Below are positions 2,355-21,812 of a stretch of DNA of 21,812 nucleotides, one piece after another (the first letter of the stretch is position 1; every line of letters starts with the position of its first letter). Location of the stretch: positions 1 through 21,812 of IMG/VR virus record IMGVR_UViG_3300005511_000092, one strand, 5' to 3'. The notes beneath the pieces are model-generated. The model did not search any database and had not been told where the DNA came from. It saw only the letters and a program-made list of their open reading frames with translations. The position numbers were made by a program, and so were the translations under genes. The DNA is from a virus.

Positions 2355-4673
2355 ATGTCCACCACGCCTGAAGAACTGCAGATCGCCGCCGCCGCCACGC
2401 AGGCGGCCAACGCCATGACCGACGAAGCGGCCGGCGTGGACGCCAAGAATCGCGCCGCCGAGCGAGAGCAGGTCAAGCGCTGGCAGCGCACCATCTCCGA
2501 GGCGCGGGACTTCGACAAGGCCGCCTACAGCATGATGGGCACCTGCCGCGGCTACGCCGCCGGCCTGTCCGCCTACGAGGTGTCGGTCAACGTCCTGGGC
2601 TCCAACATCGACATCATGAAGGCGTTCCTGTACGCGCGGAACCCACAGGTGGCGGTGACGCCGGCGCGGCAGACCTCATTGCCGCCGGTGGAGCGGCCGC
2701 AGGCCCCGGTGCCGCCGGAAAACCCGATGGACAAGCTGCTGCAGCTGCCAGGGGTGGCCGGCGCCACGCAGGATCCGGCGCAGGCACAGGCGCTGCTGCA
2801 AAGCCCGGAGGTGGCAGCGCGCGTGGGCCCGAAGCTGACCGAGTACCAGATGCAGTACGCGCAGTACCAGATGCACCTGGACATGTACACCGCGCAGATG
2901 CAGGCGTATGGCCAGGAGATGCGCAAGCGCGCCATGCTGCGCAATGAGCGCAAGCGCTTCGCCGAAACGCTGGACATCCTGGTGTCCAAGAGCTGGGACC
3001 TGGCCGAGCTGAAGGAGGAGATGCGCGCCAACATCAGCACCGCGCTGACCTGCGGGCTTGGCTGGATCAAGATGGTGTGGCAGGAAGACAATGGGATGGA
3101 CCCCATTGCGCTGAAGAAGCTCAACTCGCTGCAGGAGAACATGCAACTGGTGGAGGAACTGCGCAAGCAGGCCACCGACCCGACCAGCACGCCACATCTG
3201 GACCAGCTGCAGCAGCGCATCGCCGAGATCATCGCCGGCATGCAGCAGCAGAAGGAGGTGGTGGTTGCGCGAGGCCTGGTGGTGGACAACATCTCACCGG
3301 AAGACATCACGGTGCCGCTTGGCGTGACACGCGTGTCGAAGGTGTCCAGCTACCCGTGGATCGACCAGCGCGCTTTCATGCGCCTGGAGGCGGCGAAGGT
3401 TCGCTACCGCGGGCACGACGATGAGACATGGCGCAAGGCCACGCGCTACAGCCAGCGCAAGCCCACGATCCGCCTGAACGTCGCCGCTGCCGATCATCCC
3501 AGCTGGGAACTGACCGACGCCTCCAGCGCATCGCAGTTCACCGCCAGCAGCGACGGCAAGATGGTGGCGATGTGCGAGAGCAGCGGTGGCGACTTCATCT
3601 GCGTGCACGAAACCTGGGACAAGGTGGACGGCCTGATCCGCACCTGGGCCGAGGGGATGGACTGCTACCTGCTGCCGCCTCATGCGCCGGAAGTGCCGAT
3701 CACCCGCTTTTTCCCGTTCTTCTGCGTGGCGCCAATCGAAGTGGATGGAGAGCGTTACCCGCAGTCCAACGTACAGCGCAGCTACCAGCTGCAGGACGAG
3801 CGCAACTCGCGCCTCACCGCCATGAAGCGCCAGCGTGACCGCGCGCGGCAGGGCATCCTGGGCGACGCCGGCGCCATCGACAAGGACGAGGCCGGCAAGA
3901 TCAACGAGTCGGTGGAAGGCGAGATCACCTACGTCTCCACCACTGGCGACAAGCCGATCCAGAACGTGTTCATGGCCAAGCCCGTGGTCCAGCTGGACCC
4001 GGCGCTGTACCAGGTAGAGACGATCGACCGCGACATCGAGCGCATCTGGGGCGTGCAGCAGGCGCTCCAGGGCACCGTGCGTGTCGAGCAGACCGCCACC
4101 GAGTCGGAGATCCAGCAGCAGGGGTTCTCGGCGCGGACCGCCTATATGCGCGAGCCCATGGAGGCCGCGCTGTCGGACATGTCGGTGGCCACCTCGGAGA
4201 TCCTGCTGCAGCGGCTGACCCCGGAAGATGCCATGGCATATGCCGGCCCGGGTGCGGTGTGGCCGGAAGCCACCTCGGTGTCGGACCTGGCCTCACTGGT
4301 CACCGTGTCCATCAAGGCCGGAAGCTCCGGCAAGCCCAACCTGTCGGCCGAGCGCCAGGCGTGGTCCACGCTGCTTCCGCTGGCCCAGGGCCTGATCCAG
4401 CAGATCGGCCAGCTGCGCAACTCCGACCCGGCCAACGTCGCCGACACGTTCGAACACCTGCTGTCCATCACCATGGACCTGTCCGGCGTGCAGAACATCC
4501 CGATCGACGAGATCACCCCGCGCGAGTCCATGCCGCAGCCTCAGCCACAGCAGGCCGATGCCGGCGCGCCACCGGCTTTCCCCGCGCCGCATAACGCCGC
4601 ACCACCCATGCCCGATGACTTCGCCGCCGGCCCGACCGGCCCGAACAACCCCAACCCCAACATGCTGAATTGA
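2355..4673 (+). CDS. Portal protein (head-tail connector)
   Basis: The portal forms the dodecameric ring at one capsid vertex through which the terminase moves DNA. The identification rests on position (directly after the terminase and before scaffold and capsid), on length (772 aa, in the range of large podovirus portals) and on portal-like sequence. There is a DNISPEDITVP segment near residue 312 and, near residue 576, a TATES-EIQQQ segment leading into a long helix, as in other portals. Residues 100-200 form a Pro/Gln/Met-rich extended and helical insertion. The last 50 residues are Pro/Gln/Asn-rich and probably disordered. The start at ATG 2355 follows the terminase stop by 18 nt and its ribosome-binding site is weak, so reinitiation is likely. 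The exact portal family was not determined. Confidence 0.85.
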   Translation: MSTTPEELQIAAAATQAANAMTDEAAGVDAKNRAAEREQVKRWQRTISEARDFDKAAYSMMGTCRGYAAGLSAYEVSVNVLGSNIDIMKAFLYARNPQVAVTPARQTSLPPVERPQAPVPPENPMDKLLQLPGVAGATQDPAQAQALLQSPEVAARVGPKLTEYQMQYAQYQMHLDMYTAQMQAYGQEMRKRAMLRNERKRFAETLDILVSKSWDLAELKEEMRANISTALTCGLGWIKMVWQEDNGMDPIALKKLNSLQENMQLVEELRKQATDPTSTPHLDQLQQRIAEIIAGMQQQKEVVVARGLVVDNISPEDITVPLGVTRVSKVSSYPWIDQRAFMRLEAAKVRYRGHDDETWRKATRYSQRKPTIRLNVAAADHPSWELTDASSASQFTASSDGKMVAMCESSGGDFICVHETWDKVDGLIRTWAEGMDCYLLPPHAPEVPITRFFPFFCVAPIEVDGERYPQSNVQRSYQLQDERNSRLTAMKRQRDRARQGILGDAGAIDKDEAGKINESVEGEITYVSTTGDKPIQNVFMAKPVVQLDPALYQVETIDRDIERIWGVQQALQGTVRVEQTATESEIQQQGFSARTAYMREPMEAALSDMSVATSEILLQRLTPEDAMAYAGPGAVWPEATSVSDLASLVTVSIKAGSSGKPNLSAERQAWSTLLPLAQGLIQQIGQLRNSDPANVADTFEHLLSITMDLSGVQNIPIDEITPRESMPQPQPQQADAGAPPAFPAPHNAAPPMPDDFAAGPTGPNNPNPNMLN

Positions 4674-4683
4674 CGGAGAGAGC

Positions 4684-5799
4684 ATGAGTACGAAAGAGAT
4701 CACCGCCGAGATGACCGAGGCGGACGTGGTGAACGCGGCGCTGGCCGCGGCCGAGCTGGAAGAAGCCCCGCCTGCCCAGGTGGAGGACCCGGCGCCGGCT
4801 GAAGAAGCCGAGCCGACTGACCCGCCGCCGCCTGCCGAAGACGCCCCGCCGGCCGAGGATCCGGCCCCGGAGGAGCCCACACCCGAGGAAGTGCCGCCGG
4901 AGGAGCCGCCGCCGGCCGAGGAGCTGACCGAGGAGCAGAAGGCCAACCAGGAGGCCGACGAGGCGGCCAAGGCCATCGGCATCCGGTCGGAGCGCTCCAC
5001 CGAGAAGTTCCGCGAGGTCTACAACGACGCCAAGAAGGTGCTTCCGGCGGTGCGCGCAGAGCTGGAGCAGGTCCGCCCGGCCGCCGAGCGCTGGGAACAC
5101 ACCATGCGCTTCGTGCAGGAGCACAACATCTCCCCGGAGATGTACGGACAGGCCATGAACATGATGGCCGGCCTTGCTTCCAACGACCTGGGCGTGCTGG
5201 AGAAGGTCGCAGGCGCCCTGGAGGCCGAACTGCAGCGCGTCAACCAGCGCCTTGGCCGGGAGGGCGCCGGTTTCGACCCGCTCTCCACGCCGGAGAACCA
5301 CGACCTGCGCATGCGCGTGGAGACCGGGGAGATCGACCGCTCCGCGGCGCTGGAGATAGGCCGCCTGCGCCATGCCAACAGCCACAACGAGCAGGTGCGA
5401 GCAGAGCAGCAGCGACGGCAGCAGGAGGCAGACAGCGCGGCTGAGGCGCGCAACCAAGCTGTGGCCGAGCTTGACAGGCTCGGCGAGGAGCTGTCGAAGC
5501 TGGACCCGAACTTCGCGGCAAAGTCCGCCGCCATCGAGCCGTCCATGAAGGCGATGATCGCCCGCCTGCCGCCGCGGGAGTGGGCCGCGGCCTACAAGGA
5601 GGCCTACATGGGCTTCCAGTACACGCCGCCGCCTGCCGCGCGCGCCGCGCCCGCGCCCACGCCGCTGCGACACCAGCCTCTGCGCCCCAGCGCCGTGCCT
5701 GGAGGCGCCGCCGCCGCGCCGGTACAGACGGAAGCTGACGTGGTGGCCGAGGCGCTGCGCCAGGCCGCCGCGCTCGATGGTGTGCCGTTCAAGGGTTGA
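4684..5799 (+). CDS. Capsid scaffolding protein (probable)
   Basis: This gene sits between portal and major capsid protein, the usual place of a scaffold, which guides shell assembly and is then lost. The 371-aa product fits: residues 25-85 are an acidic Pro/Glu/Ala-rich disordered tract, the middle (about 85-310) is highly charged and helical with heptad-like stretches near 240-300, and the end is Pro/Ala-rich and basic. The start at ATG 4684 has a good GGAGAG 4-5 nt upstream. The hexapeptide TEADVV occurs at residues 11-16 and again at 349-354, each time leading into a short Ala/Leu helix, so the two ends look alike. Sequence alone does not prove scaffold function; a capsid protease or decoration role is not indicated. 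Confidence 0.75.
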   Translation: MSTKEITAEMTEADVVNAALAAAELEEAPPAQVEDPAPAEEAEPTDPPPPAEDAPPAEDPAPEEPTPEEVPPEEPPPAEELTEEQKANQEADEAAKAIGIRSERSTEKFREVYNDAKKVLPAVRAELEQVRPAAERWEHTMRFVQEHNISPEMYGQAMNMMAGLASNDLGVLEKVAGALEAELQRVNQRLGREGAGFDPLSTPENHDLRMRVETGEIDRSAALEIGRLRHANSHNEQVRAEQQRRQQEADSAAEARNQAVAELDRLGEELSKLDPNFAAKSAAIEPSMKAMIARLPPREWAAAYKEAYMGFQYTPPPAARAAPAPTPLRHQPLRPSAVPGGAAAAPVQTEADVVAEALRQAAALDGVPFKG

Positions 5800-5959: not shown

Positions 5960-7018
5960 ATGCCTTTCAACCAGACGCAGATCGACCAGATCGGTCACTA
6001 CGCGATCAACTTCTACGCCAAGAATGAACCCGTGGACCAGGTGAACACCGGCCACCCGTTCTACGACTGGCTGGTGCGCAACAAGCAGGAGGAGCCGGCC
6101 GTCGGCCAGTTCTTCAGCGAGAACATCTACATCTCCAACGACTCGAACGGCCAGAACTACTTCGGCGCCGATCAGGTCACCTACAACAGCCGTGACCCGG
6201 GCCGCCAGACCCAGTGGGCCTGGTACAACTACCACAACGGCTTCGGCTTCGATGAGGACACCCTGAAGGCGGCTGGCGTCATCAAGACCGACGACCGCGA
6301 AGCGCAGGCGTCCGAGGCCGAGCGCTCCATCCTGATGAACCGCCTGAAGGTCGCGTACATGTCGATGCGCCTGGGCACGCAGGAAGACCTGGCCATCGAG
6401 TTCCTGTGGGACGGCACCCAGTCCACCAAGGCCGTGCCGGGCGTGGGTAATATCATCTCGCTGACCCCGAACACCGGCACCGTCGGAGGCATCGACGCGG
6501 GCACCAACACCTACTGGCGCAACAACACCAGCCTGGGCATCGTGACCAGCACGCCGGCCAACGGCAACATCAACGCCGCGCTGAAGTCGATGTGGCGCGC
6601 CAACACGCGCCGCGGCGGCGCCGCCCCGACCGTAATCTTCGCCGGCCAGGCCTTCATCGAAGCCCTGGAAGCCGAGAACCGCGCCATCTCGCACCTGAAC
6701 GTGACGATGGACAACAGCGGCCGCGGCACCAGCTACGACGGCGGCGTCAACAAGACCGACTTCAACGGCATCCCGGTCATCTGGGACCCGACGTTCGAGA
6801 CGATCGACGCCAAGTACAGCCCGGCCACCCCGTACACCAAGCGCGCCTACATGGTGTCCGAGCGCGCGCTGGTGCTGCGCCCGGTCCAGGGCTTCTGGAT
6901 GCTGGATCGCAAGCCGCCGCGCGTCTACGACCGCTACGTCCACTACTGGGGCCGCACCGCGTCGTACCGCCTGACCACCAACCGCCGCAACGGCCTGGCC
7001 GTTCTGTCGATCGCCTGA
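5960..7018 (+). CDS. Major capsid protein
   Basis: This is the shell-forming subunit, expected to have the HK97 fold. Support comes from its position after scaffold, its size (352 aa), its own leader and strong downstream terminator, and typical features. It has an N-terminal helix region, a middle with a long Glu/Arg helix (near residues 115-140), a FNGIPVIWDPTFE segment near residues 268-281 of the kind common in phage capsid proteins, and a C-terminal strand-rich part with RPVQGFW and TNRRNGLAVLSIA. The composition is balanced, with Asn and Tyr frequent, unlike the Ala-rich neighbours, as expected for a highly expressed, well-packed protein. The start at ATG 5960 has AGAGAG 7 nt upstream. 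I did not settle the capsid family; resemblance to the N4 gp56-type group is possible but uncertain. Confidence 0.88.
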   Translation: MPFNQTQIDQIGHYAINFYAKNEPVDQVNTGHPFYDWLVRNKQEEPAVGQFFSENIYISNDSNGQNYFGADQVTYNSRDPGRQTQWAWYNYHNGFGFDEDTLKAAGVIKTDDREAQASEAERSILMNRLKVAYMSMRLGTQEDLAIEFLWDGTQSTKAVPGVGNIISLTPNTGTVGGIDAGTNTYWRNNTSLGIVTSTPANGNINAALKSMWRANTRRGGAAPTVIFAGQAFIEALEAENRAISHLNVTMDNSGRGTSYDGGVNKTDFNGIPVIWDPTFETIDAKYSPATPYTKRAYMVSERALVLRPVQGFWMLDRKPPRVYDRYVHYWGRTASYRLTTNRRNGLAVLSIA

Positions 7019-8060: not shown

Positions 8061-8065
8061 CCGTG

Positions 8066-8575
8066 ATGTCGTTCGAGCAAGCACACCGCCTGATCCTGGA
8101 GTTCGAAGGCGGAAAGTCCGACGATCCGAGGGATCCGGGTGGGCGCACCAATCTTGGCGTGACCCAGCAGACCCTGGACACCTTCCGGAAGAAAAACCCC
8201 TCCTGGGGGTTGCCGGCGGACGTGTTTGATTTGAACGTGGGCGAGTCCGGCATGATCTACAAGCAAGGCTACTGGGACGAGATGCGATGCGACGAAATGC
8301 CGGGGGGCATCGCGCTGATGGCGTTCGACTGCGCGGTCAATCAGGGGTCGGGGCGAGCCAAGCGGCTGCTTCAGACATCGGCCAAGGTGACGGCGGACGG
8401 GATCATCGGGCCGGCGACACTGAATGCGGTGAAGGCGGCCGACCAGGAGAAGCTGCGGGCCGAGTTCGCGGCCCAGCGCGTGATGGCATACATCAGCACC
8501 GGCAGGATGGCCACGTTCGGGCTTGGCTGGATGAGGCGCTTGATGCGCGTCCTCCAGGTAGCCGGGAGCCAGTGA
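8066..8575 (+). CDS. Endolysin, GH108-type muramidase with peptidoglycan-binding domain
   Basis: This enzyme cleaves the glycan strands of peptidoglycan at the end of infection. The N-terminal half carries the hallmark of glycosyl hydrolase family 108: FEGG (catalytic Glu14) followed by DDPRDPGGRTNLGVT. The C-terminal half, from about residue 88, fits the PG_binding_3 type (FDCAVNQG, then DGIIGPATLNAV). At 169 aa the length is normal. I chose ATG 8066 rather than the GTG at 8063 because GGGGAG ends 5 nt before the ATG, but only 2 nt before the GTG. No signal peptide is seen, so export should depend on the holin. It is the first gene of the lysis cassette; its stop overlaps the next start. Confidence 0.93.
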   Translation: MSFEQAHRLILEFEGGKSDDPRDPGGRTNLGVTQQTLDTFRKKNPSWGLPADVFDLNVGESGMIYKQGYWDEMRCDEMPGGIALMAFDCAVNQGSGRAKRLLQTSAKVTADGIIGPATLNAVKAADQEKLRAEFAAQRVMAYISTGRMATFGLGWMRRLMRVLQVAGSQ

Positions 8576-8898: not shown

Positions 8899-9242
8899 AG
8901 GACCAGCAGGAGGTACTGAACCTGGGCGGCGCGTCCATCGCCATGGCGCTGGTGGCGATCCTGGCCTACCTGTGCTGGACCCTGGCCACGCAGGAGATCC
9001 CTGCCTCCAACGAGAACATCCTGTTCGCCGTGGTCGGCGTGGTGGCCACGCAGATTACGCAGATCGTGAGCTTCTTCTTCGGGTCCAGCCAGTCCTCCAA
9101 GAAGCAGTCCGAGACGATCGACAAGCTGGCGCAGACCACCCACCAGGCCCAGTCCGCGGCGCTTCCGTCGGATAAGGCCACTGTCACCCTGGCGCCCGGC
9201 GCCAGCGCCACCGTGGAGGCGTCCGATGGCGGCCATCCTTGA
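8895..9242 (+). CDS. Holin candidate, two membrane segments
   Basis: The holin permeabilises the inner membrane and sets the time of lysis. The 115-aa product has two hydrophobic segments, about residues 12-31 (ASIAMALVAILAYLCW) and 42-63 (ILFAVVGVVATQITQIVSFF), joined by a short polar turn. The GSSQSSKKQ directly after the second segment resembles the FFGSS/K-rich end of known phage holins. The soluble tail (residues 64-115) is Ala/Ser/Thr-rich. The start at ATG 8895 overlaps the previous stop and is preceded by GAGGGGG. Neighbouring endolysin and spanins support the role. The call is by topology and context, not by a specific holin family. Confidence 0.75.
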   Translation: MKDQQEVLNLGGASIAMALVAILAYLCWTLATQEIPASNENILFAVVGVVATQITQIVSFFFGSSQSSKKQSETIDKLAQTTHQAQSAALPSDKATVTLAPGASATVEASDGGHP

Positions 9243-9630
9243 CCCCGTGCGCCCGTATCTGTGGGCGCTGAAGCTGGCCGGCTGGTGCCTGCTGGCGGCG
9301 GTGCTGGTACTGGGCGGCTGCCGCTGGGAGCATGCCCGCATGCAGGGCAAGGTCGAGCAGGCCCAGGCCAAGCAGAAGGCGGCCGAGGACCAGGCCGACG
9401 GCTACGTCCGTACCCTGAACACAATTAACGACCAGACCAAGGCGGCCGTGGCCGCCGCGGCGCAGGAGAAGGCCAAGGCCGACGCGGCGGTGAAATCCGC
9501 GCAGAAGGTGGCCGAGGAGTCGCGCCAGCGCGCTGCCAGCGCCGAGGCAGCGCTGCAGGCGGCCAAGCGCAACCCCACCTGCCGGTCCCAACTCGAGATG
9601 CAGCTATGCGACTCCATCCCCTTGCTGTGA
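9226..9630 (+). CDS. Rz: Inner-membrane spanin (Rz-like)
   Basis: The i-spanin spans the periplasm with its outer-membrane partner and fuses the two membranes in the last step of lysis. The 134-aa product has a single N-terminal signal-anchor (about residues 14-31) and a long Ala/Lys/Glu/Gln-rich coiled coil (33-115), the classic Rz layout. The C-terminus contains two Cys in a short non-helical tail (Cys118 and Cys127), where spanins contact their partner. The start at ATG 9226 has GGAGG 8 nt upstream and overlaps the holin gene by 17 nt. The next gene starts inside its last 25 nt in another frame, as is usual for Rz/Rz1 pairs. Confidence 0.88.
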   Translation: MAAILDPVRPYLWALKLAGWCLLAAVLVLGGCRWEHARMQGKVEQAQAKQKAAEDQADGYVRTLNTINDQTKAAVAAAAQEKAKADAAVKSAQKVAEESRQRAASAEAALQAAKRNPTCRSQLEMQLCDSIPLL

Positions 9631-9860: not shown

Positions 9861-10360
9861 TCGACTTCCACGTCCTCACGATGCCGGACATGCGGCAGGA
9901 CTGGCTCAACCAGTCGGTCCTCAGCATCCTGGACGCTGCCAAGCAGGCGCAGGTTCCGGTGTCCGTCCGGCTGCTGCCCGGCATCGAGGGCCACATCGGT
10001 CGCGCGCGCAAGCAGGCATTCGCGGCCGGAACCCACCCATGGGTGTCGTGGGTCGATGGGGACGACTGGATCTCCCGCGATGCCATCGCCATGCTGGCCA
10101 GCCATATGGACGCCGCCCGCGCGGTCAGCGGCCGCGGAATCCATGTCCATGAGGACGGGCGCATGGTGCGCGCCTCGCGCGGGCTGGTGCTTGCGCGCCG
10201 GGAGGATGCGGACATATTCGACTGGGAGCGCTACCCGTACTGCGGCACCTGTTCGTTCCAGGATTCCCTCGGCGGCGTGCACGTCGACCACCATGGGTAC
10301 TACCGCCGGAGGTATGATTCACCGGCACGCAAGCTGCGGGGTGATGCGCCATGTGGGTGA
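9857..10360 (+). CDS. Small GT-A glycosyltransferase-like protein
   Basis: I place the start at GTG 9857, which overlaps the o-spanin stop (GTGA) and has GGGAG 5 nt upstream. The 167-aa product opens with strand-helix units. Residues 48-70 read GRARKQAFAAGTHPWVSWVDGDD: a conserved Arg-rich helix and then the strand ending in the DGDD box (67-70) that binds the nucleotide-sugar metal in family 2-like GT-A enzymes. The second half has shorter strands and a Trp/Tyr/Cys segment. At 167 aa it is well below a complete GT2 enzyme (usually 230 aa or more), so it may be a minimal or degenerate form. Substrate and acceptor are unknown. Its place between lysis and tail genes is notable. Confidence 0.7.
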   Translation: MIDFHVLTMPDMRQDWLNQSVLSILDAAKQAQVPVSVRLLPGIEGHIGRARKQAFAAGTHPWVSWVDGDDWISRDAIAMLASHMDAARAVSGRGIHVHEDGRMVRASRGLVLARREDADIFDWERYPYCGTCSFQDSLGGVHVDHHGYYRRRYDSPARKLRGDAPCG

Positions 10361-11568
10361 ACATTTTCGAGCTGGGGACCGGATACCGGACCTGGGGCCA
10401 GCGCTCCAGTGACAACTGGTTCTGGGCGGGGGGCACGCCTTTCGCCATCAACAGCGCTGCGGATGCGGTGATGGTCGATGACTGCGACCCGGTGTTCTCC
10501 TACCAGGCCAGCGACCATGCGGTGATCCGCACGCAGTTCCCCAGCACCGCAGGCGTCAACATCCTGTACCTGGAGATCCCCGGGTGGGGTGTCGGCTCCA
10601 ACAACTTCCGCATCCGGTGTGAAAGCGACGCCACGGACAGCGCGAATTTCGATCTGTGCCAGATGGCGATCGATGGCACCGACACGCCGGTCATCGGCAC
10701 CATCATCAACAACTTCATGACGCCATCGGCGCCGCTTGAGATCGCCGTTTCTGGCAACGACGGAAACGACGGCATCGCCATCAAGGTGACCGAAAGCCAG
10801 GCCAACCAGCCGGCAAACTTCTTCGTGGAGCAATGGGTGGACAGTCCGGAAGAAGTCTCCTACAACTGCGAGTGCGACGACGAGTATCCGCGCAAGACGC
10901 TGGCGGAGATGCGCAAGTACGTGCTAACCCGGCTCGGCATGTATACGCCGACGCTGCTTCCTGGCACCAAGGACCTGATCGACGCCTTCATCGTGGATGC
11001 GCAGGAGCAGCTGTCCGAGGCGTACAAGGTCTTCCGCATGGAGCGCTTCTTCACCTGGAACCTGGTTCCCGGGGTGCGCTTCTACGACCTGGACGCCAAC
11101 GCTGACACCTGCACCAAGAAGCTGGATCCGCGCATGCTGACGTGGGTCGGCATCTCGCAGCAGGATAATTTCTGGAGACCGCTGGTGTGCGGAATCCGGC
11201 CGGAGTTCTACTACTCCAACATCGAGTCATGGCCGACGCACTACGAGATCCGTCAGTGCATCGAGCTGTGGCCCGCGCCGTCGGACGAGAACTGGAAGCT
11301 TCGCATCAAGGGCTACTTCGGCCTGATGCCGCTGGTCGATGACGAGGACTACTCCACCATCGACTACCAGGCCATCCAGCTTTTCGCGCTTGCCAATGCC
11401 AAGGCGCACTACCAGCAGCCGGATGCGGCCAACATCATGGCGCAGGCCAACGCCTACATCAAAAGCTTGGTGGCAGGCCAGCACCAGACGCGCCGGTACA
11501 TCCCCGGCGTGGACCTGTACGTGCCGCCGCCGCTTCCGGTGCTTACCGGTTATCCGGGTGACCCATGA
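10351..11568 (+). CDS. Head-tail adaptor (P22 gp4-like C-terminal half) with extra N-terminal domain
   Basis: Adaptors form a ring beneath the portal and hold the tail. Residues about 180-405 fit this: a helix (KTLAEMRKYVLTRLGM), then DLIDAFIVDAQEQLSEAYKVF, an aromatic-rich strand part (RFFTWNLVPGVRFYDLD), and a later helix with FALANAKAHYQQPDA, like the gp4-type tail accessory and connector proteins. Residues 1-170 form a separate beta-rich domain (many Asn, Asp, Gly, Thr and aromatic residues; no motif recognised), joined by NCEC at 172-175. The start at ATG 10351 follows a GGGG and overlaps the previous gene by 10 nt. The N-terminal domain is unusual for an adaptor and could be exposed on the virion. 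The adaptor call is from pattern and context. Confidence 0.65.
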   Translation: MWVNIFELGTGYRTWGQRSSDNWFWAGGTPFAINSAADAVMVDDCDPVFSYQASDHAVIRTQFPSTAGVNILYLEIPGWGVGSNNFRIRCESDATDSANFDLCQMAIDGTDTPVIGTIINNFMTPSAPLEIAVSGNDGNDGIAIKVTESQANQPANFFVEQWVDSPEEVSYNCECDDEYPRKTLAEMRKYVLTRLGMYTPTLLPGTKDLIDAFIVDAQEQLSEAYKVFRMERFFTWNLVPGVRFYDLDANADTCTKKLDPRMLTWVGISQQDNFWRPLVCGIRPEFYYSNIESWPTHYEIRQCIELWPAPSDENWKLRIKGYFGLMPLVDDEDYSTIDYQAIQLFALANAKAHYQQPDAANIMAQANAYIKSLVAGQHQTRRYIPGVDLYVPPPLPVLTGYPGDP

Positions 11569-12356
11569 GGGACTTTGCGATCTCCAGCGCGAAGTCCGGC
11601 ATGAACCGCCAGCGCAACAAGGGCGGCGCGCCGAAGGACTCGTTCTACTCGCTGAAGGAGTGCTACGTCACCTCCGACCGCAGCGTGGTGCCGCGCCCCG
11701 GCACCGTGCGCGACGTGGCGCTGCCGGTTGGCACGAAGGGACTCATGGCCTTCCGAGGGAGGCTATGGGTGTTCTCCAGCGAGCCGCTGACCTCGCCGGA
11801 CCCGAAGTACGTCATCTCCACCCTGCAGCACCCGGACCCGGCATCCACGGCCAACCTGAAGGAGATCCACTTCGCGCAGCCGTTCCTCGGCTTCCCCTAC
11901 GTCGTGGCGGAGTTCGATGACGACCCGACGAAGTTCTACCACTACTGGCTGCAGGACACCGGCACCTGGCTGCCGAACCACATCTACGCCATCGGCGAGG
12001 TGGTGCAGCCCACGTCCCCGAACGGATACACCTACACCGCCACGCGCCTGGGCGCAGCCAACCCAGTGTGGGCTGCCGGACAGCCGCGCGCGATCGGTGA
12101 CGTGATCGAGCCGACGGTGGCCAACGGCTACCAGTACCGCGTCATCGACGTGGCCGGCGACAACCCGGTGTCCGGGTCCATCGAGCCGGCATGGATCGCG
12201 CAGGATGGCGCCATCGTCTACGAGGACAACGACACCACCGGCACTTCCAGCGGCAGCGCTGCGCCGACCGTCCCGCCGTCGGTGAGCGACCGCTACAGCA
12301 ACCAGGGCGGCTCTGGCGGCGCGATGACCAACAGCAACACGACGCAGGCGAACTGA
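11565..12356 (+). CDS. Tail protein, N-terminal part of a propeller with EPxW repeats
   Basis: The 263-aa product starts at ATG 11565 overlapping the adaptor stop (ATGA). Residues 37-72 (SDRSVVPRPGT, then LMAFRGRLWVFS) resemble the opening blade of phage tail-closure proteins of the P22 gp10 type. Residues 105-135 continue with strands. Residues 135-221 contain two related repeats, each with an AIGEVV/AIGDVI element, an NGY-x-Y strand and a W, the second ending in SGSIEPAW. The last 40 residues are Ser/Thr/Gly/Asn-rich and look like a linker. The protein stops just where the repeats resume in the next gene, so I read the two products as parts of one structure. Single-gene function was not determined. 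Confidence 0.6.
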   Translation: MRDFAISSAKSGMNRQRNKGGAPKDSFYSLKECYVTSDRSVVPRPGTVRDVALPVGTKGLMAFRGRLWVFSSEPLTSPDPKYVISTLQHPDPASTANLKEIHFAQPFLGFPYVVAEFDDDPTKFYHYWLQDTGTWLPNHIYAIGEVVQPTSPNGYTYTATRLGAANPVWAAGQPRAIGDVIEPTVANGYQYRVIDVAGDNPVSGSIEPAWIAQDGAIVYEDNDTTGTSSGSAAPTVPPSVSDRYSNQGGSGGAMTNSNTTQAN

Positions 12357-13126
12357 TGGCCACCCCTGTATGGACTCCCGGCACTCTCTACCCGAACGGC
12401 TCGATCGTCCGGCCGACTGCGCCGTCCGCGCCAGGGCCGGCCGTCATCGCCAACCCGACTTTCGATGCCGGGTCGACGGGCTGGGACCTGAGCGGCGTGG
12501 CCGCCTGGTCGGCGACCGGCGGCTTCTCCACCCCGGGCTGCATCCAGTGCACCAACGGCATCGGCGCTGTCTACCTGTCGGCATTCACCCCGGTGAACCC
12601 TGGCCAGTCGGTGACGGCCAGCTGCATGATCGGCACGCCAAACGGCAGCCCCGGCAGCGGCGGCGACGTGAACATCAACTGGTACACCGCCGCTGACGTT
12701 TTCATCTCCCAGTCGCAGGGGAACACCGTAAACCGGAATGGCGGCACCGGCTTCCGCATGTCGGCAGTGACCGCCAGCGCGCCGGCCAATGCCGCCAAGT
12801 ACAAGATCGGCGCCGACGTGCAGACGGCCGGCACCGGCGCCATCGTGCGAGTGGACAACTTCACTACCTCCGTCTCCGGCGGCACGCTCTCTGGCCTGGT
12901 CTACCGCGCCACGCAGTCCGGCGTCGGCACCAGCGGCAGCAGCGAGCCGGCGTGGCCCGGCGCGGCCGGCGTCACCGTCAACGACGGCACCGTGGTGTGG
13001 GAGGGCGTGGTCGCAACCCGCATCACCTACCAGGCCGAGCCGATCCTGAAGTCCGGATCTGTCGAGCCGACCTGGCCCAGCGTGGTCGGCAACGCCGTGG
13101 CAGACGGGACGATCTCCTGGGTCGCC
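11967..13126 (+). repeat. EPxW repeat array spanning two tail genes
   Basis: Four related protein repeats can be seen. Units 1 and 2 lie in the 263-aa protein (11967-12227) and share AIG-E/D-V plus NGY-x-Y. Unit 3 begins in the 600-aa protein as WTPGTLYPNGSIVRP (12371-12415) and resumes after a 160-residue interruption as LVYRATQSG with SSEPAWP and DGTVVW (12896-13006). Unit 4 follows directly (ITYQ, SVEPTWP, DGTISW). The shared pattern in units 2-4 is Y, then GS/SS-x-EP-x-W, and in units 3 and 4 also a DGT-x-x-W strand. Such units occur in many phage tail proteins and may bind glycans. Confidence 0.6.
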
Positions 13127-14158
13127 ACCACGCGCCAGGTCACTGCGGCGCCGAACTCCAAGGTGGTGGCGATCGACTCCTCCAAGGTCTACGCCGCCGA
13201 CAAGGACATCATCCGCTACAGTGCCACGGTCAACCCGCTGGACTGGACCACTCGGGATGATGCCGGCTACCTGCCCTCCGGCCTGACGCAGTACGGCAGC
13301 AACGACACCGCGGTGCTGAACCTGTACCGCGCCAACCTGGTGTCCTGGTCGGCCTCCACCTTCCAGAACTGGCAGGTCGATCCCGACCCGGCCAACATGG
13401 ACAAGCTGGACGAGATGCAGGGCATCGGCTCGATCTACCAGCAGGCTGCGCAGCCGGTGGCAAAGGATCTGTTCTTCCTCGCCGCGCTCGGCTTCCGCAC
13501 AGTCGGCATCTCCGCCGGCAGCACCAACCTGGTGAACGGTGATGCGGGCATGCCCATCGACCCGCTTGTGCGCGAGGAGATCGGCGATCTGACCACCAAT
13601 GGCTACACGCCGCGTGGCCTGTACTACCCGTCGCTGGGCCAGTACTGGGGCGCCTTCGGGCCGCGTACCTTCGTCTACACGTTCGCCCAGCTCGGCTCGG
13701 TCGGCGCCTGGTCGGAGTACAACTTCCCGTGGCCTGTCGAGGGCCAGGCGCAGCTCGGAGATGACCTGTACCTGCGCTCCGGCGATGCGGTCTACCGAGT
13801 GGATCCGTCGCGGCTGGCGGACCAGAACGCCGACGGCGCCGACGTGGAGGTCGTGGCTGAGATCCAGAGCCACTACCTGGACATGAACAGCCCCGGGGTG
13901 ATGAAGCAGATGCTCGGCTTCGACCTGGTGGGCAACGGCGTCGTGCGCGTCAGCTTCGGCATCAACCAGAGCGACCTGTCGGTATTCACCGACGACGCCA
14001 GCATCCCCTCGGACACCGTGCCAGGCATGGTGATCCCCATCCCGCTGATGGCGCCGTCGTTCTCTATGCGTCTTCGTTATAGCTCAACCGATAATCCGCA
14101 AGGATGGGAATGGCTCGCCTCGAACCTGTACCTGCAGGACATGAGGAAGATGTCGTGA
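12356..14158 (+). CDS. Tail protein: CBM-like domain, EPxW repeats and propeller remainder
   Basis: The start at ATG 12356 overlaps the previous stop (TGATG), giving 600 aa. Residues 6-22 are the first half of an EPxW unit. Residues 31-170 look like a jelly-roll carbohydrate-binding domain (NPTFDAGSTGW at the start, VDNF at the end). EPxW units follow at about 180-257. Residues 265-600 look like the remaining blades of a tail-closure propeller: VYAADKDIIRYSA, PLDWTT-RDDAG, then ANLVSWSASTFQNWQVDP, FFLAALGFRTVGIS and a strand-rich end. The pattern resembles P22 gp10-type packaged-DNA stabilisation proteins. The role inferred is closing the portal channel and possibly contacting surface glycan. 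No catalytic site is seen. Confidence 0.65.
   Translation: MATPVWTPGTLYPNGSIVRPTAPSAPGPAVIANPTFDAGSTGWDLSGVAAWSATGGFSTPGCIQCTNGIGAVYLSAFTPVNPGQSVTASCMIGTPNGSPGSGGDVNINWYTAADVFISQSQGNTVNRNGGTGFRMSAVTASAPANAAKYKIGADVQTAGTGAIVRVDNFTTSVSGGTLSGLVYRATQSGVGTSGSSEPAWPGAAGVTVNDGTVVWEGVVATRITYQAEPILKSGSVEPTWPSVVGNAVADGTISWVATTRQVTAAPNSKVVAIDSSKVYAADKDIIRYSATVNPLDWTTRDDAGYLPSGLTQYGSNDTAVLNLYRANLVSWSASTFQNWQVDPDPANMDKLDEMQGIGSIYQQAAQPVAKDLFFLAALGFRTVGISAGSTNLVNGDAGMPIDPLVREEIGDLTTNGYTPRGLYYPSLGQYWGAFGPRTFVYTFAQLGSVGAWSEYNFPWPVEGQAQLGDDLYLRSGDAVYRVDPSRLADQNADGADVEVVAEIQSHYLDMNSPGVMKQMLGFDLVGNGVVRVSFGINQSDLSVFTDDASIPSDTVPGMVIPIPLMAPSFSMRLRYSSTDNPQGWEWLASNLYLQDMRKMS
12446..12871 (+). other. CBM4/9-like jelly-roll domain inserted into an EPxW unit
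   Basis: Residues 31-172 of the 600-aa tail protein start with ANPTFDAGSTGWDLSG and end with a VDNF strand, the typical first and last elements of CBM4/9-like beta-sandwich domains. The segment lies between the two halves of repeat unit 3, which reads as if the domain had been inserted. Ligand and calcium sites were not determined. Confidence 0.55.
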
Positions 14159-14652
14159 GGATGGCCATGCCCGCCCGCGTGCGCGACTGCCGGCTGGAAG
14201 ACCTGCAGGCGGTGTGCGCCGACATGCGCGAGGACGAGATCGAGCAGACGCTGGCGCTGGGCGTAAACGATCGCTACGACGCCAGCGCGGCGGCAGCGTC
14301 CCTGTGGCGCTCGCCAGGTCCAAAGATCACCATCCTGGATACCACGGGCGCCCCCATCCTGTGCGGAGGCGCCATGGAGGTATCCACTGGCGTGTACGAG
14401 GGCTGGCAGGTGGCCACAAAGACAGCCTGGGACGGCAACTGGCGGCACATCACCCGCGTGACCCGGTGGTTCATGGCCCGCATGTTCCTGCTCGGCGCCC
14501 ATCGGATGCAGATCAACTCGCTTGCCAGTCGCCGCGGTGCTTGCCAGTGGTATGCCAAAGGTCTGAAAATGACCTTTGAGGGTATTCGCAGGGGTTATGG
14601 CCGCTGCGGGGAGGACATTGCCGAATATGCACGCCTGAGGAGTGATCCATGA
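14155..14652 (+). CDS. GNAT-fold internal virion protein (T7 gp13-like)
   Basis: The 165-aa product fits the small GNAT-like proteins coded ahead of podovirus ejection proteins, such as T7 gp13. It opens VRDCRLEDLQAVCADMRE, as these do, has a middle with TILDTTGAPILCGGAMEV, and a C-terminal helix-strand RRGACQWYAKGLKMTFEGIRRGYGR of the GNAT kind. The Arg/Gln-x-x-Gly-x-Gly/Ala acetyl-CoA loop is not evident, so it may be structural rather than enzymatic. The GTG at 14155 (overlapping the previous stop, with AGGAAG 5-6 nt upstream) is my preferred start; ATG 14161 is the alternative. In T7, gp13 is needed for virion assembly. The next start overlaps its stop (ATGA). Confidence 0.65.
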   Translation: MRMAMPARVRDCRLEDLQAVCADMREDEIEQTLALGVNDRYDASAAAASLWRSPGPKITILDTTGAPILCGGAMEVSTGVYEGWQVATKTAWDGNWRHITRVTRWFMARMFLLGAHRMQINSLASRRGACQWYAKGLKMTFEGIRRGYGRCGEDIAEYARLRSDP

Positions 14653-17472: not shown

Positions 17473-20400
17473 ATGGCAAAGCTGACGGCGGTTGACTTCG
17501 ATCCGTTCGATGAGAAGAAGACCGCCCCGTCACTGACGCCGGTGGACTTCGACCCGTTCTCGGATGCGCCGCGCGCCGACTTCTCCGGGGTCAGTTCGCG
17601 GGTTATCCCAGCGGCACCGGAAGGGTTCCTTGACCGCACTGGCGACTACCTGCGCCAGCAGCAGGCCAAGCCACTGGCCCAGCGCCTGCAGGAGACGCCC
17701 GGGCAGATCCTGGGTGGCGTCGAGAGCTTTGGCCGTGGCTTGGCCTCCGGCTTCAACAACCTCGGCGGCAGCGCGGCGCTGATCGGCGCCATGCCCGTCG
17801 CCGCCGGCATCGACCTGCTGACCGGACACGCTCCCGGCACCGGGCCGGCAGGCGAGGCGGTGGGGCGCTACGTGGACTCTTCCTATGCCAATGCCCAGCG
17901 GCTGCTGGCGGAGGATCCGCGGCGCGACAACCCGCTAACCATCATCCCGCAGGCGGCCGGCGCCGTTATCCCGGACCTGGCGGCCGCCATGGCCACCGGC
18001 GGTGAGTCCGCGGCGGTGCGGCCGGCAATCCAGACCGGGCTGCGCGATGCTGTGCTGGCCAGCGCCGAGCGCGCCGTGGACCAGGGCGTGCGCGCCAGCA
18101 TCATCCCCTCAGTCAACCGTGGCACGCAGCTGGGCCAGCAGGTCATCCAAGCCGGCGGCACTCCGGCGGAGGCCATGGCGGCGCTCGGCAGCGGCGCGGC
18201 AGCCAACTCGCTGGCGTTCCTGGCCCCGGCGGCGACCAGCGGCTCCCTGCCGGCGCGGCTGGCGCAGGGCGCCCTGGTGGAACCAGCGGCGGGCTACCTG
18301 CAGACCCAGCTGGAGAACCTGGCGCTCCCCGACCGTCTGGGCCTGGACCAGCAGTACGACGCACAGCAGGCCATCACCGATGCCTTCATGGGCGCCGGCC
18401 TGGGAGGCATGACCGGAGAGCGGGCGCCGGAGCCGTTGAACGACCCGGTGGCGATGCGCGGCGCGCCCGCACCGGTGAGCGACCTGTCGCCGTCGGCTCG
18501 CGCTGTCGGCGGATTCGATGAGGCGCGCCTGACGCCGGTGGAGCGTGCCCCGGAATTCGTGGATGAGCCGGCGCCGCGCGCCGCCGTCACGGCGCCTGCA
18601 CCCGAAGCGCGAGAGACTGCACGCCCCTCCCCTGCGCCTGATGTGCGCGAGTCCGTCGCCCCCGACAGCGGCGCCGCGACGCTGGCGCGGGAGGAGGTTC
18701 TTTCTGAGCCGGCGACGGACACCCGGGTTGCGCTTGAGCCGCAGGCACCGCAGGAAACCCGTGAGGTGGTGGCCAAGACGCCTCGGGGCGAATTCCGCTT
18801 GGAGGACCGCCCTGCCGTCGCCGGCCGCGACTTCAGCGAGTTCGGACAGATCCGAGAGGTGACGGCCTACGATGGTGATACGCCCATCGGCACGCTGGTA
18901 TATGCGAATGACGGAACCCCTCCAACCGTTGAGGTGAATCCGGAATACCAGCGCCGCGGCGTGGCAACGGCCATGCTGAAGCTGGCGCGAGAGCAGGGTG
19001 GCGTGCTTGGTGCTGCGGATACCGGAATGTCCGGCCGTGGGCGTCCAACCTACCGGACCGATGAAGGGCAGGCATTCCGCAGCGCGGCAGACGAATCCAG
19101 CGTGCAGTTCTTTGCCCCTGAACAGCAGGCTTCCCCAGCCGCCCCAGCCACTCCCCAGGCAGAGGAGGCGCTGGCTCCGGTTTCCCAGCCTATCCCCATG
19201 CCGGCAGCACCGCCGGCGGCCGAGGCGCCCCCGCCCGCGCCGCGCGAGTCCACCGGAATCAAGCATGCCGTCACCGACATGGAGCGCGCGCGCGAGGGCC
19301 GCGACCCAATCTCCCGCGAGCTGCGCCAGTCCAACGAGCAGACCTACGGCGAGGCGATGCAGCGGCGCACCGAGGATCCAACCTGGACGGCCTCGCTGAT
19401 CGAGCGGCACAAGACCTCCACTACGCCGGGCACGCTGACGGCGACCGAGCAGATGGCGCTCCTGCAGGACAAGGTGGCGCTTCGCCAGGAGCGCGACGCC
19501 GCCGCCACCCGTGTGGGCAACGACAGGCTGCCGGAGAGCGAGCGCGCCGCGGCCAAAGCGGCGTGGCTGCGGGCAGAGCAGGCCATCAACGACATCGACG
19601 TGGTGACCAGCGAGGCCGGCTCGAACATCGGCCGCGCGCTGCAGATCCGCCAGCGCATGCTGCGCGACGACTTCAGCCTGGAAGCCATGGAGCGCCGCGA
19701 GCGCGCCGTGCGCGGTCGCCCTCTGACGCAGGCCGAGCATGCCCAGCTGGTGCAGCTGTCCGAGCGAATCAAGGGGCTGGAGCGCGACCTGGAGGCCGCA
19801 CGCAAGGCTGTGGAGGACCATGACGCCACCCGGGGCGTGAAGCAGGCATACGAGTCCATCCTGAAGGAGGTGGTCGGCCAGTCGCGCACCGCGGCGCGCG
19901 CCGGCAAGCCGAAGCTCGATGTCATGCGCGAGCGGGCGGAGAAATCCCGCGCCGAGATCCGCAAGTCCCTGGGCCAGTTCAACTCGGGCGTGGACCCTGC
20001 CCTATTTGGGCACCTGGTCAACATCGGCGCCTACCACGTCGCCGACGGCGCGGTGCGCCTGAAGGACTGGATGACCCGGATGAAGGCCGAGCTGGGCGAC
20101 GTGTTCGAGCGCGTGCGCGACATCCTGCCGGACGTGTTTGCCGCCAGTCGGATGAGCGATCGCGCGGCGGAAACCCAGTTCAAGGCCGATGCGCGCACCG
20201 GCGAGGCGCTGACGCCTACCGACATCGCCGCCGAGGTCGACCCGGAGAACGTCACCACGGCCAACGTGCGCGACCTGGCGCTGGCCCACATCCGGTCCGG
20301 CCTGCGTGGCGAGGATGCCGTCATGAAGGCCGTGCACGGCGATCTGGAGGACGCTGGCGCCGGCCTGACCGAGCGGGAGGTGCGTCAGCTGTTCTCCGAA

Positions 20401-21812
20401 TACGGCCGGCAGCGCAATCCGACGCGGGATGCCGATCGCGCCGAGCTGGGGCGCCTGCGCCAGCTGGTGAAGCTGCAGGAGAGCATCGACCGCCTGACCA
20501 CCGGCCAGAAGCCGCTGACCGGAGCGCGCCGCGGGCAGGTGGCTGAGGAGGTGCGCCAGAAGCGTGCGCAGCTCAACCAGATGCTGAAGCAGGCCGGCCT
20601 GAACCCGGCAGCATCACCAGAGCGCCAGGCCGCGCTGCGCCAGAAGCGCATCGAGAACTTGAACGCGCGGATCGCCGACCTGCAGGACCAGATCGCCACC
20701 GGGCGCCGGCCGGCGGGGCGCCAGCGCGCTGCCAGCGGCGATGCCGAGATCCAGGCGCTGCGCAACCGCATTAACGATCTGACCGCCGAGCGCAATGCCG
20801 TCGATGCCGAGGCGCGCCGCGCCGCGCGCGACCCGGAGGCCATCTACCAGGGCCAGCGCGGCCGCGCCATCGAGAGGGAGATCGAGAAGATCCAGGCACG
20901 CATCAAGGCCGACGACTACGCCCATGCGCCGCGCATGCCGCGCCAGCTGTCCGAGGCCAACCAGCGGGCCGCCTACGAACTGGACAAGGCGCGGCAGGAG
21001 TTCCGCAACCGGCAGTTCATGGCCGACCTGGCCAACCGCTCCGGCTGGGCCAAGGCGCTGGACAACACCAAGTCCGGCGTGAACCTGGCGCGCGCCATCC
21101 AGACCGGCCTTGACCTGTCCGGCCTGCTGCGCCAGGGCGGCGTGGTGACGTTCTCCCACCCCATCCGCGCCGGCTCTGCGATCCCGGACATGCTTCGCTC
21201 GTTCATTTCTGAGCGGAAGGCGCACGCCATCGAGCAGGACCTGAAAGCGCGGCCAAACGCGCCGCTGTACCGCAAGGCCGGCCTGGACATCACCGAATCC
21301 CACGGCGAGATGTCCAAGATGGAGGAGCAGTACATGACCAGGTGGCTGGATAGGCTGAACTACCAGCCAGGCCAGCCGGTGCGCAACGCAGCGCGCCGTA
21401 CGGTCAACATCGCCCTTGGCCCGATACGCGGCTCGGGGCGCGCCTACGGAACCGTCCTGAACAAGCTGCGCGCCGACACCTTCGATGCGATGGTGGCCAC
21501 GCTCTCGCGCGACGGTCAGGCGCCAACGATGGATGAGGCCAAGGCCATCGCCAACTACGTCAACGTGGCCACCGGCCGCGGCAACCCCGGTCGGATGAAG
21601 CAGTTCGCCTCGGACCTCAACACGGTGTTCTTTGCGCCGCGCCTGGTCCTGAGCCGTTTCCAGTTCCTGACCGGCCAGCCGCTGTATGGCGGCACGGCGC
21701 GCACGCGCGCGCTGGTCGCGCAGGAGTATGCCCGCTACCTGACCGGCATGTCGCTGGTCTACGGCCTTGGCTACTTGTGGCACCATGCCCAGGACGAGGA
21801 CAAGGACGAGGA
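17473..21812 (+). CDS. Giant ejection / polyvalent protein with GNAT domain (3' truncated by window)
   Basis: I translated this frame from ATG 17473 to the window end and found no stop, giving at least 1446 residues. In order: two VDFDPF repeats (7-12 and 24-29); a Gly/Ala-rich, membrane-active-looking stretch (about 75-118); helical segments to about 310; an Ala/Pro/Glu linker; a GNAT-like domain (about 457-540, acetyl-CoA loop QRRGVAT at 493-499); a Pro-rich linker (555-595); very long coiled coils (657-1160); and a C-terminal part with NYVNVATGRGNPGRM and FFAPRLVLSRFQ, ending in a hydrophobic segment (YLTGMSLVYGLGYLW). That last part resembles the LPD38-type domain of phage polyvalent proteins, from memory only. 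It is probably injected and may form a trans-envelope channel or act in the host. Confidence 0.85.
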   Translation, partial: MAKLTAVDFDPFDEKKTAPSLTPVDFDPFSDAPRADFSGVSSRVIPAAPEGFLDRTGDYLRQQQAKPLAQRLQETPGQILGGVESFGRGLASGFNNLGGSAALIGAMPVAAGIDLLTGHAPGTGPAGEAVGRYVDSSYANAQRLLAEDPRRDNPLTIIPQAAGAVIPDLAAAMATGGESAAVRPAIQTGLRDAVLASAERAVDQGVRASIIPSVNRGTQLGQQVIQAGGTPAEAMAALGSGAAANSLAFLAPAATSGSLPARLAQGALVEPAAGYLQTQLENLALPDRLGLDQQYDAQQAITDAFMGAGLGGMTGERAPEPLNDPVAMRGAPAPVSDLSPSARAVGGFDEARLTPVERAPEFVDEPAPRAAVTAPAPEARETARPSPAPDVRESVAPDSGAATLAREEVLSEPATDTRVALEPQAPQETREVVAKTPRGEFRLEDRPAVAGRDFSEFGQIREVTAYDGDTPIGTLVYANDGTPPTVEVNPEYQRRGVATAMLKLAREQGGVLGAADTGMSGRGRPTYRTDEGQAFRSAADESSVQFFAPEQQASPAAPATPQAEEALAPVSQPIPMPAAPPAAEAPPPAPRESTGIKHAVTDMERAREGRDPISRELRQSNEQTYGEAMQRRTEDPTWTASLIERHKTSTTPGTLTATEQMALLQDKVALRQERDAAATRVGNDRLPESERAAAKAAWLRAEQAINDIDVVTSEAGSNIGRALQIRQRMLRDDFSLEAMERRERAVRGRPLTQAEHAQLVQLSERIKGLERDLEAARKAVEDHDATRGVKQAYESILKEVVGQSRTAARAGKPKLDVMRERAEKSRAEIRKSLGQFNSGVDPALFGHLVNIGAYHVADGAVRLKDWMTRMKAELGDVFERVRDILPDVFAASRMSDRAAETQFKADARTGEALTPTDIAAEVDPENVTTANVRDLALAHIRSGLRGEDAVMKAVHGDLEDAGAGLTEREVRQLFSEYGRQRNPTRDADRAELGRLRQLVKLQESIDRLTTGQKPLTGARRGQVAEEVRQKRAQLNQMLKQAGLNPAASPERQAALRQKRIENLNARIADLQDQIATGRRPAGRQRAASGDAEIQALRNRINDLTAERNAVDAEARRAARDPEAIYQGQRGRAIEREIEKIQARIKADDYAHAPRMPRQLSEANQRAAYELDKARQEFRNRQFMADLANRSGWAKALDNTKSGVNLARAIQTGLDLSGLLRQGGVVTFSHPIRAGSAIPDMLRSFISERKAHAIEQDLKARPNAPLYRKAGLDITESHGEMSKMEEQYMTRWLDRLNYQPGQPVRNAARRTVNIALGPIRGSGRAYGTVLNKLRADTFDAMVATLSRDGQAPTMDEAKAIANYVNVATGRGNPGRMKQFASDLNTVFFAPRLVLSRFQFLTGQPLYGGTARTRALVAQEYARYLTGMSLVYGLGYLWHHAQDEDKDE
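17482..17562 (+). repeat. Two VDFDPF peptide repeats at the N-terminus of the giant protein
   Basis: The decapeptides LTAVDFDPFD (residues 4-13) and LTPVDFDPFS (21-30) are coded at 17482-17511 and 17533-17562. The core VDFDPF is identical while the codons differ at several third positions, so the peptide rather than the DNA appears conserved. This suggests a short binding motif. Confidence 0.7.
18841..19110 (+). other. GNAT acetyltransferase-like domain within the giant protein
   Basis: Residues 457-546 read as a GNAT core: strand IREVTAYD, strand PIGTLVYAND, strand TVEVNPEYQ, the acetyl-CoA loop QRRGVAT and a helix AMLKLAREQ. Pro/Ala-rich linkers flank it on both sides. By hand count 18841-18960 is about 60% GC, lower than the linker before it (about 80% in 18421-18480), which fits a separately acquired module. 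Confidence 0.65.

Follow-up and report, generated by a model that had tools for sequence, protein, structure and literature searches.

A conserved split of the tail nozzle in a phage family, with one subunit probably encoded as two chains

The nozzle is a hexameric beta-propeller protein which lies below the adaptor, closes the DNA channel and normally consists of one chain. In the virus studied here, two adjoining genes very probably encode one tail-nozzle subunit as two chains. The stretch analysed (the window) comprises positions 1 to 21,812 of IMG/VR virus record IMGVR_UViG_3300005511_000092, 21,812 nucleotides in all. The split nozzle is real and conserved in this phage family; it is shown by computation, through the homology and order of the parts, the recurrence of the break, selection, and the fold of a fused relative. 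The two chains would probably assemble together in the virion, non-covalently and in six copies. The nozzles P22 gp10, T7 gp12 and SU10 gp17 are single chains; here the gate which holds the pressurised packaged DNA would be built from separately translated pieces. No report of a split nozzle was found in open-licence papers. The protein is a variant of a known nozzle protein and not a new kind of machine.

The gene pair and its homology to one-gene nozzles

The genes and their parts are as follows.

10351..11568, + strand: adaptor (head-to-tail) gene (Pfam SU10_adaptor, E 2.4e-12, residues 183-378)
11565..12356, + strand: gene 1, N-terminal piece of the nozzle, 263 aa (hhalign to single-gene nozzles, N-domain HMM)
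11565..11966, + strand: N domain of the nozzle, residues 1-134 of gene 1, probably platform strands and about the first two blades
11964..12230, + strand: repeats 1 and 2 of gene 1, residues 134-222, with a CBM5/12-like pattern (phrog_20658, repeat-versus-repeat score)
12231..12353, + strand: Ser/Thr/Gly-rich tail of gene 1, counterpart of the disordered linker in fused relatives
12288..12302, + strand: DRYSN motif (DRYGN-like), kept in fused and split members
12354..12358, + strand: stop/start junction TGATG, a one-base overlap of gene 1 and gene 2
12356..14158, + strand: gene 2, remainder of the nozzle, 600 aa (tblastn to single-gene relatives, K and C HMMs)
12365..12421, + strand: first half of repeat 3 (WTPGTLYPNGSIVRPT...), gene 2
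12437..12889, + strand: CBM16-like beta-sandwich within repeat 3, about residues 28-178 of gene 2 (Foldseek)
12896..13129, + strand: second half of repeat 3 and repeat 4 (EPAW, EPTW), gene 2
13145..13648, + strand: propeller core K, gene 2 residues 264-431 (tblastn, K HMM)
13637..13675, + strand: blade hairpin GQYWGAFGPRTFVY, uncut in the window and the site of a second break in seven relatives
13673..14155, + strand: C-terminal blades and platform-like domain, gene 2 residues 440-600 (C HMM)

The reading frames, product lengths and one-base overlap reported in the first-pass annotation were all borne out on the window, and a longer contig of 44.5 kb (IMGVR_UViG_3300025294_000010) carries both genes with 100% identity. 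The adaptor gene lies directly upstream of gene 1, which it overlaps by four bases (ATGA), and relatives show the same order; because the adaptor gene adjoins it, the pair occupies the position of a podovirus nozzle gene. The adaptor itself has an N-terminal extension of about 175 residues (window 10351-10875) which is found at no other locus compared, and among relatives such extensions range from none to more than 400 residues.

Relatives of the core were collected from 51 viral contigs and 7 bacterial loci, and HMMs for N, K (the core) and C were placed on their open reading frames. Gene 2 residues 262-582 match single-gene proteins by tblastn in Microcystis phage Mae-Yong1326-1 (E 8e-18) and Rhizobium phage RHph_N65 (E 2e-15). 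The former protein is annotated as a packaged DNA stabilization protein, the latter phage has a single nozzle gene, and gene order in both is the same as in the window. Gene 1 had no tblastn match among phage records, so a profile comparison was needed to tie it to the single-gene nozzles; by hhalign the gene 1 family matches these with an E-value of 9.6e-10 (query columns 16-143 to template 10-137). When both genes were scanned against Pfam and PHROG, only repeat and module matches appeared and no nozzle family, and PDB sequence searches returned nothing relevant, with no solved nozzle matched at the sequence level. From their matches, a single ancestral protein has been divided in sequence order, its N-terminal part being gene 1 and its C-terminal part gene 2, and an insert separates the two.

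At the point of this insert Mae-Yong1326-1 has nothing, and the roughly 115 residues inserted in RHph_N65 are different. The repeats are absent from compact relatives such as Mae-Yong1326-1 and L054 (about 461-465 aa), which do have the propeller. In about 30 distinct sequences N, K and C lie together in one reading frame of 461-1404 aa, many with the same repeats and linker. These natural fusions are the one-gene relatives which the first-pass annotation had proposed to look for, and they agree with its remark that a single gene of the P22 gp10 type covers this role elsewhere. Its placing of propeller-like sequence before the repeats in gene 1 and after them in gene 2 also stands, as the N domain, K and C match one-gene nozzles in that order.

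One natural fusion, L023 (897 aa), was folded as a stand-in for the window pair. Its model has a mean pLDDT of 81, with the N part mostly above 85 and the core mostly at 75-95; strands within residues 2-124 reach about 82-97, while the linker at residues 219-274, which contains DRYGN at 248, falls below 50. In a Foldseek search of the PDB, every hit from rank 1 to rank 29 was a nozzle or gp10 chain of a podovirus, or else the crAss001 muzzle, which is related (E 1.5e-15 to 1.1e-6); these include cyanophage A4 (1.5e-15), SU10 (5e-14), T7 (about 1e-11, with gp12 nozzle entries at 2e-10 to 8e-10) and P22 gp10 (1.3e-9). TM-scores are moderate (0.3-0.5, target-normalised) and the rmsd is high, because the inserts move freely. 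As judged from this fusion, the pair is predicted to have a nozzle fold with a beta-propeller, to which the N domain of gene 1 would contribute about the first two blades.

It has to be asked whether the two products could be separate tail proteins, each with a complete and independent fold. Each does have complete repeat domains, and the CBM16-like sandwich is the well-folded part of gene 2 when this is modelled alone (pLDDT 68). In that model, however, the K region is not confidently folded: residues 268-358 have a pLDDT of about 25-47, whereas their counterpart in L023 is mostly at 75-95. For gene 2, the separate prediction proposed at first pass thus leaves the propeller core unfolded, a contrast which is suggestive only, because the two alignments differ. 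Moreover, in the alignment the gene 1 N domain corresponds to the start of a one-chain propeller protein, and the roughly 30 fused relatives have N continuous with K and C. Two independent proteins are thus very unlikely, and a single nozzle subunit in two chains remains the preferred reading.

Recurrence and history of the break

Metagenomes and Lysobacterales prophages supply 15 distinct sequences in which N lies apart from K; in seven of these C is also apart. One polypeptide per subunit, which is usual for nozzles and inessential to the fold, does not hold for the window, which has two genes; relatives have one to three. The split is also found in bacterial genome assemblies of Stenotrophomonas, Rhodanobacter and Luteibacter, and those bacterial carriers which can be placed below phylum are all Lysobacterales. 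Together with the likeness of the gene 2 sandwich to Xanthomonas phage fibres, this fits a host in the Lysobacterales. Related prophages in sequenced strains make the system testable; non-pathogenic carriers of a split-nozzle prophage include Luteibacter sp. SG786, Rhodanobacter sp. FW104-R8 and Stenotrophomonas rhizophila USBA GBX 843.

Every cut between N and K falls in the same stretch, a Ser/Thr/Gly-rich linker joining repeat 2 to repeat 3. The junctions are TGATG, TAATG, ATGA, GTGA, or gaps of one or two bases, and in 14 of the 15 sequences stop and start lie no more than 3 bases apart. In L015, three genes (2821-5179; 175, 140 and 492 aa) are found between nozzle pieces 1 and 2.

Programmed -1 frameshifting might bypass such a break and yield a full-length fusion, either as the sole product or alongside the two chains. 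In favour of this, most members have their downstream frame at -1, and in the window some 250 bases upstream of the gene 2 start are open in its frame. However, the overlap of the two genes contains no X XXY YYZ slippery heptamer, and ahead of the gene 1 stop the downstream frame is open for only about 3 bases in L012 and for 9 bases in L020-L022. The frame in L043 is +1, and the intervening genes of L015 also argue against it. For want of a slippery site, and because several members overlap too little, a programmed frameshift pair was rejected and has a very low probability.

The first-pass annotation had named an old frameshift as the plain alternative; in this reading a frameshift or a sequencing error broke the gene, and at most one of the pieces works. 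A single indel would leave gene 2 in the -1 frame relative to gene 1, as is observed, and two other loci, L047 (2009-4868) and L057 (4255-7060), do look like simple frameshifts, with a break inside a domain and no proper start; neither was counted among the conserved splits. Against this, the same linker is cut in 15 diverged sequences with varied junctions, some of them in bacterial genome assemblies, and both pieces are under purifying selection (between the window and L012, gene 1 has a dN/dS of about 0.37 and the gene 2 core one of about 0.23). The break is therefore not a recent frameshift, and this explanation too has a very low probability. A split intein was dropped, because the gene ends hold only short linker and repeat sequence.

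In a tree of N, K and C together, the compact fused genes lie outside, split lineages take the basal positions, and among them sits a large clade of fused genes; grouping the split lineages as one clade is rejected (AU test, p 1e-84). Fused L027 is sister to split L043 (support 100/95). A search of 399 Lysobacterales-order genomes yielded one further prophage (L071/L072), with a fused gene and a linker of about 10 residues, which is sister to split L067 (support 100/98). Four changes are needed on this tree. The simplest reading of the tree would be one split and three re-fusions, the deep ingroup branches being weakly supported; were splitting the only kind of event, this one linker would have to have been cut independently some seven times or more.

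The second break, between K and C, falls within a blade hairpin. In L023 the strands flanking its site (714-719 and 722-728) form one such hairpin, and a cut inside it indicates that covalent continuity is dispensable at that place. In the window's nearest relative, L012, the same hairpin is cut (6434-7018), with the genes overlapping and cargo absent, which is possibly a scar left by cargo loss. Tail-fibre genes lie between nozzle pieces 2 and 3 in L005 (3490-5084) and L066 (9161-10719); these match phrog_4176 (E 7e-71 in L005 and 1e-56 in L066) and, in L005, phrog_4950 (E 2e-43). L067 has a Laminin_G_3 lectin-like gene at the second break, and upstream of the second cut in L003/L013 come an Ig-like stretch and a propeller of the Sortilin/BNR-like type (Pfam E 2.4e-5). 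The presence of tail-fibre genes between the pieces suggests an entry route for receptor-binding modules into the tail hub. A bolder proposal, which we hold only tentatively, is that the nozzle is a deliberately fragmented modular hub of one to three chains, in which two fixed cut loops serve as landing sites where fibre or lectin-like genes are swapped without a reading-frame constraint, and which re-fuses without cargo. In gene 2 of L003 (6310-7571) the Ig-like stretch and Sortilin/BNR-like repeats perhaps form a second propeller inside the nozzle protein.

The repeats and the proposed assembly of the nozzle

The repeats are shared by both sides of the break, as first described. Gene 1 residues 134-225 align to the repeat region of gene 2 with a score of 95 (shuffles 32 +/- 6.5, with 0 of 500 reaching 95), and a PHROG profile, phrog_20658, matches both genes (E 2e-5 and 6e-4). 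Within gene 1, repeat 1 against repeat 2 scores 75 (shuffles 22 +/- 4.6); within gene 2, repeat 3 against repeat 4 scores 78 (shuffles 25 +/- 4.9). Their description as EPxW repeats holds less well, since gene 1 has a single strict copy of the motif, at residue 207, and gene 2 has two, at 197 and 237. The repeats have a resemblance to CBM5/12 and no more: the best match, in orthologue P0005, is 14.5 bits (E 0.037) against a CBM_5_12 cut-off of 26.2. Repeat 3 is split by the beta-sandwich of about 150 residues, which resembles CBM16 structures by Foldseek (target TM-score up to 0.73, E about 1e-6); a related module occurs in Xanthomonas phage tail fibres.

Gene 1 does not end inside the repeat series, as had been thought, but about 40 residues beyond repeat 2, in the Ser/Thr/Gly-rich tail. 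A DRYGN-like motif is found by pattern in 38 of 41 insert-bearing sequences, fused or split, with L066 (DRYQY) added by eye, and the end of gene 1 usually lies 2-17 residues past it. The first-pass proposal of a two-chain propeller assembled across a repeat-mediated joint thus survives in part. The split propeller holds, from the order of the parts and the fused relatives; the joint finds no support, as the repeats form an insertion, the break falls past them in a linker predicted to be disordered, and compact relatives lack them altogether. The repeats are appended arms, inserted between the two propeller parts.

In the proposed assembly, gene 1 would give the strands of the N-terminus, the first blades and, after these, two repeat domains, and gene 2 would give two repeat domains, one with the carbohydrate-binding-like sandwich, followed by the other blades and the C-terminal platform. 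The stop/start overlap most likely couples translation of the two genes; the chains would therefore be made together and in matched amounts. They would close the propeller through blade-to-blade contacts, and the repeats and sandwich would form arms outside the ring, at a loop like that which bears the nozzle domains of SU10, and may bind the host surface. The linker that is cut is disordered and sits at the distal end of these arms, so the propeller would lose only a covalent link which was already about 420 residues long.

P22 gp10 (packaged DNA stabilization protein, 471 residues; PDB 8eap, 8u10, 9jg6) occupies the same position below the adaptor, and its fold match to L023 has a target TM-score of 0.50. 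It is, however, one compact chain with neither the repeats nor the CBM insert, and its sequence similarity is undetectable. Solved nozzles have a seven-bladed propeller. In the nozzle of SU10, gp17 (PDB 7z4b, 7z47), which has such a propeller and a platform, blades 2 and 3 are separated by four inserted nozzle domains (PMC9509320). These inserted domains are comparable to the four repeats which follow about two blades in the window, although in SU10 they form a continuous string within one chain. From the order of parts rather than superposed coordinates, the insertion sites appear to be equivalent. In T7 gp12 (PDB 6r21, 7ey7) the propeller is closed by a velcro strand and the N-terminal strands lie in the platform (PMC6702177); this too is one chain, with domains inserted at other loops. 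Closer at hand, the single-gene nozzles of Mae-Yong1326-1 and RHph_N65 have sequence homology to gene 2 and profile homology to gene 1. The T5-like LtfA/LtfB (PMC4728585) likewise represent a virion protein encoded by a single gene in one phage and by two genes in its relatives; this is a fibre, not a propeller, with a joint of a different kind. The family described here offers a natural split-propeller system with fused controls to hand.

Other genes in the window

An endolysin gene (8063-8575; Glyco_hydro_108, PG_binding_3) and a spanin-like gene (9226-9630) are located between the genes for the coat and the adaptor. After the nozzle is a small gene (14104-14652) matching phrog_4177 (E 7e-11); genes at that place in Mae-Yong1326-1 and RHph_N65 are annotated as N-acetyltransferase. 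Finally, a very large reading frame (17473-21812) runs off the end of the window, with a weak GNAT-like stretch and a weak DarB-like antirestriction match.
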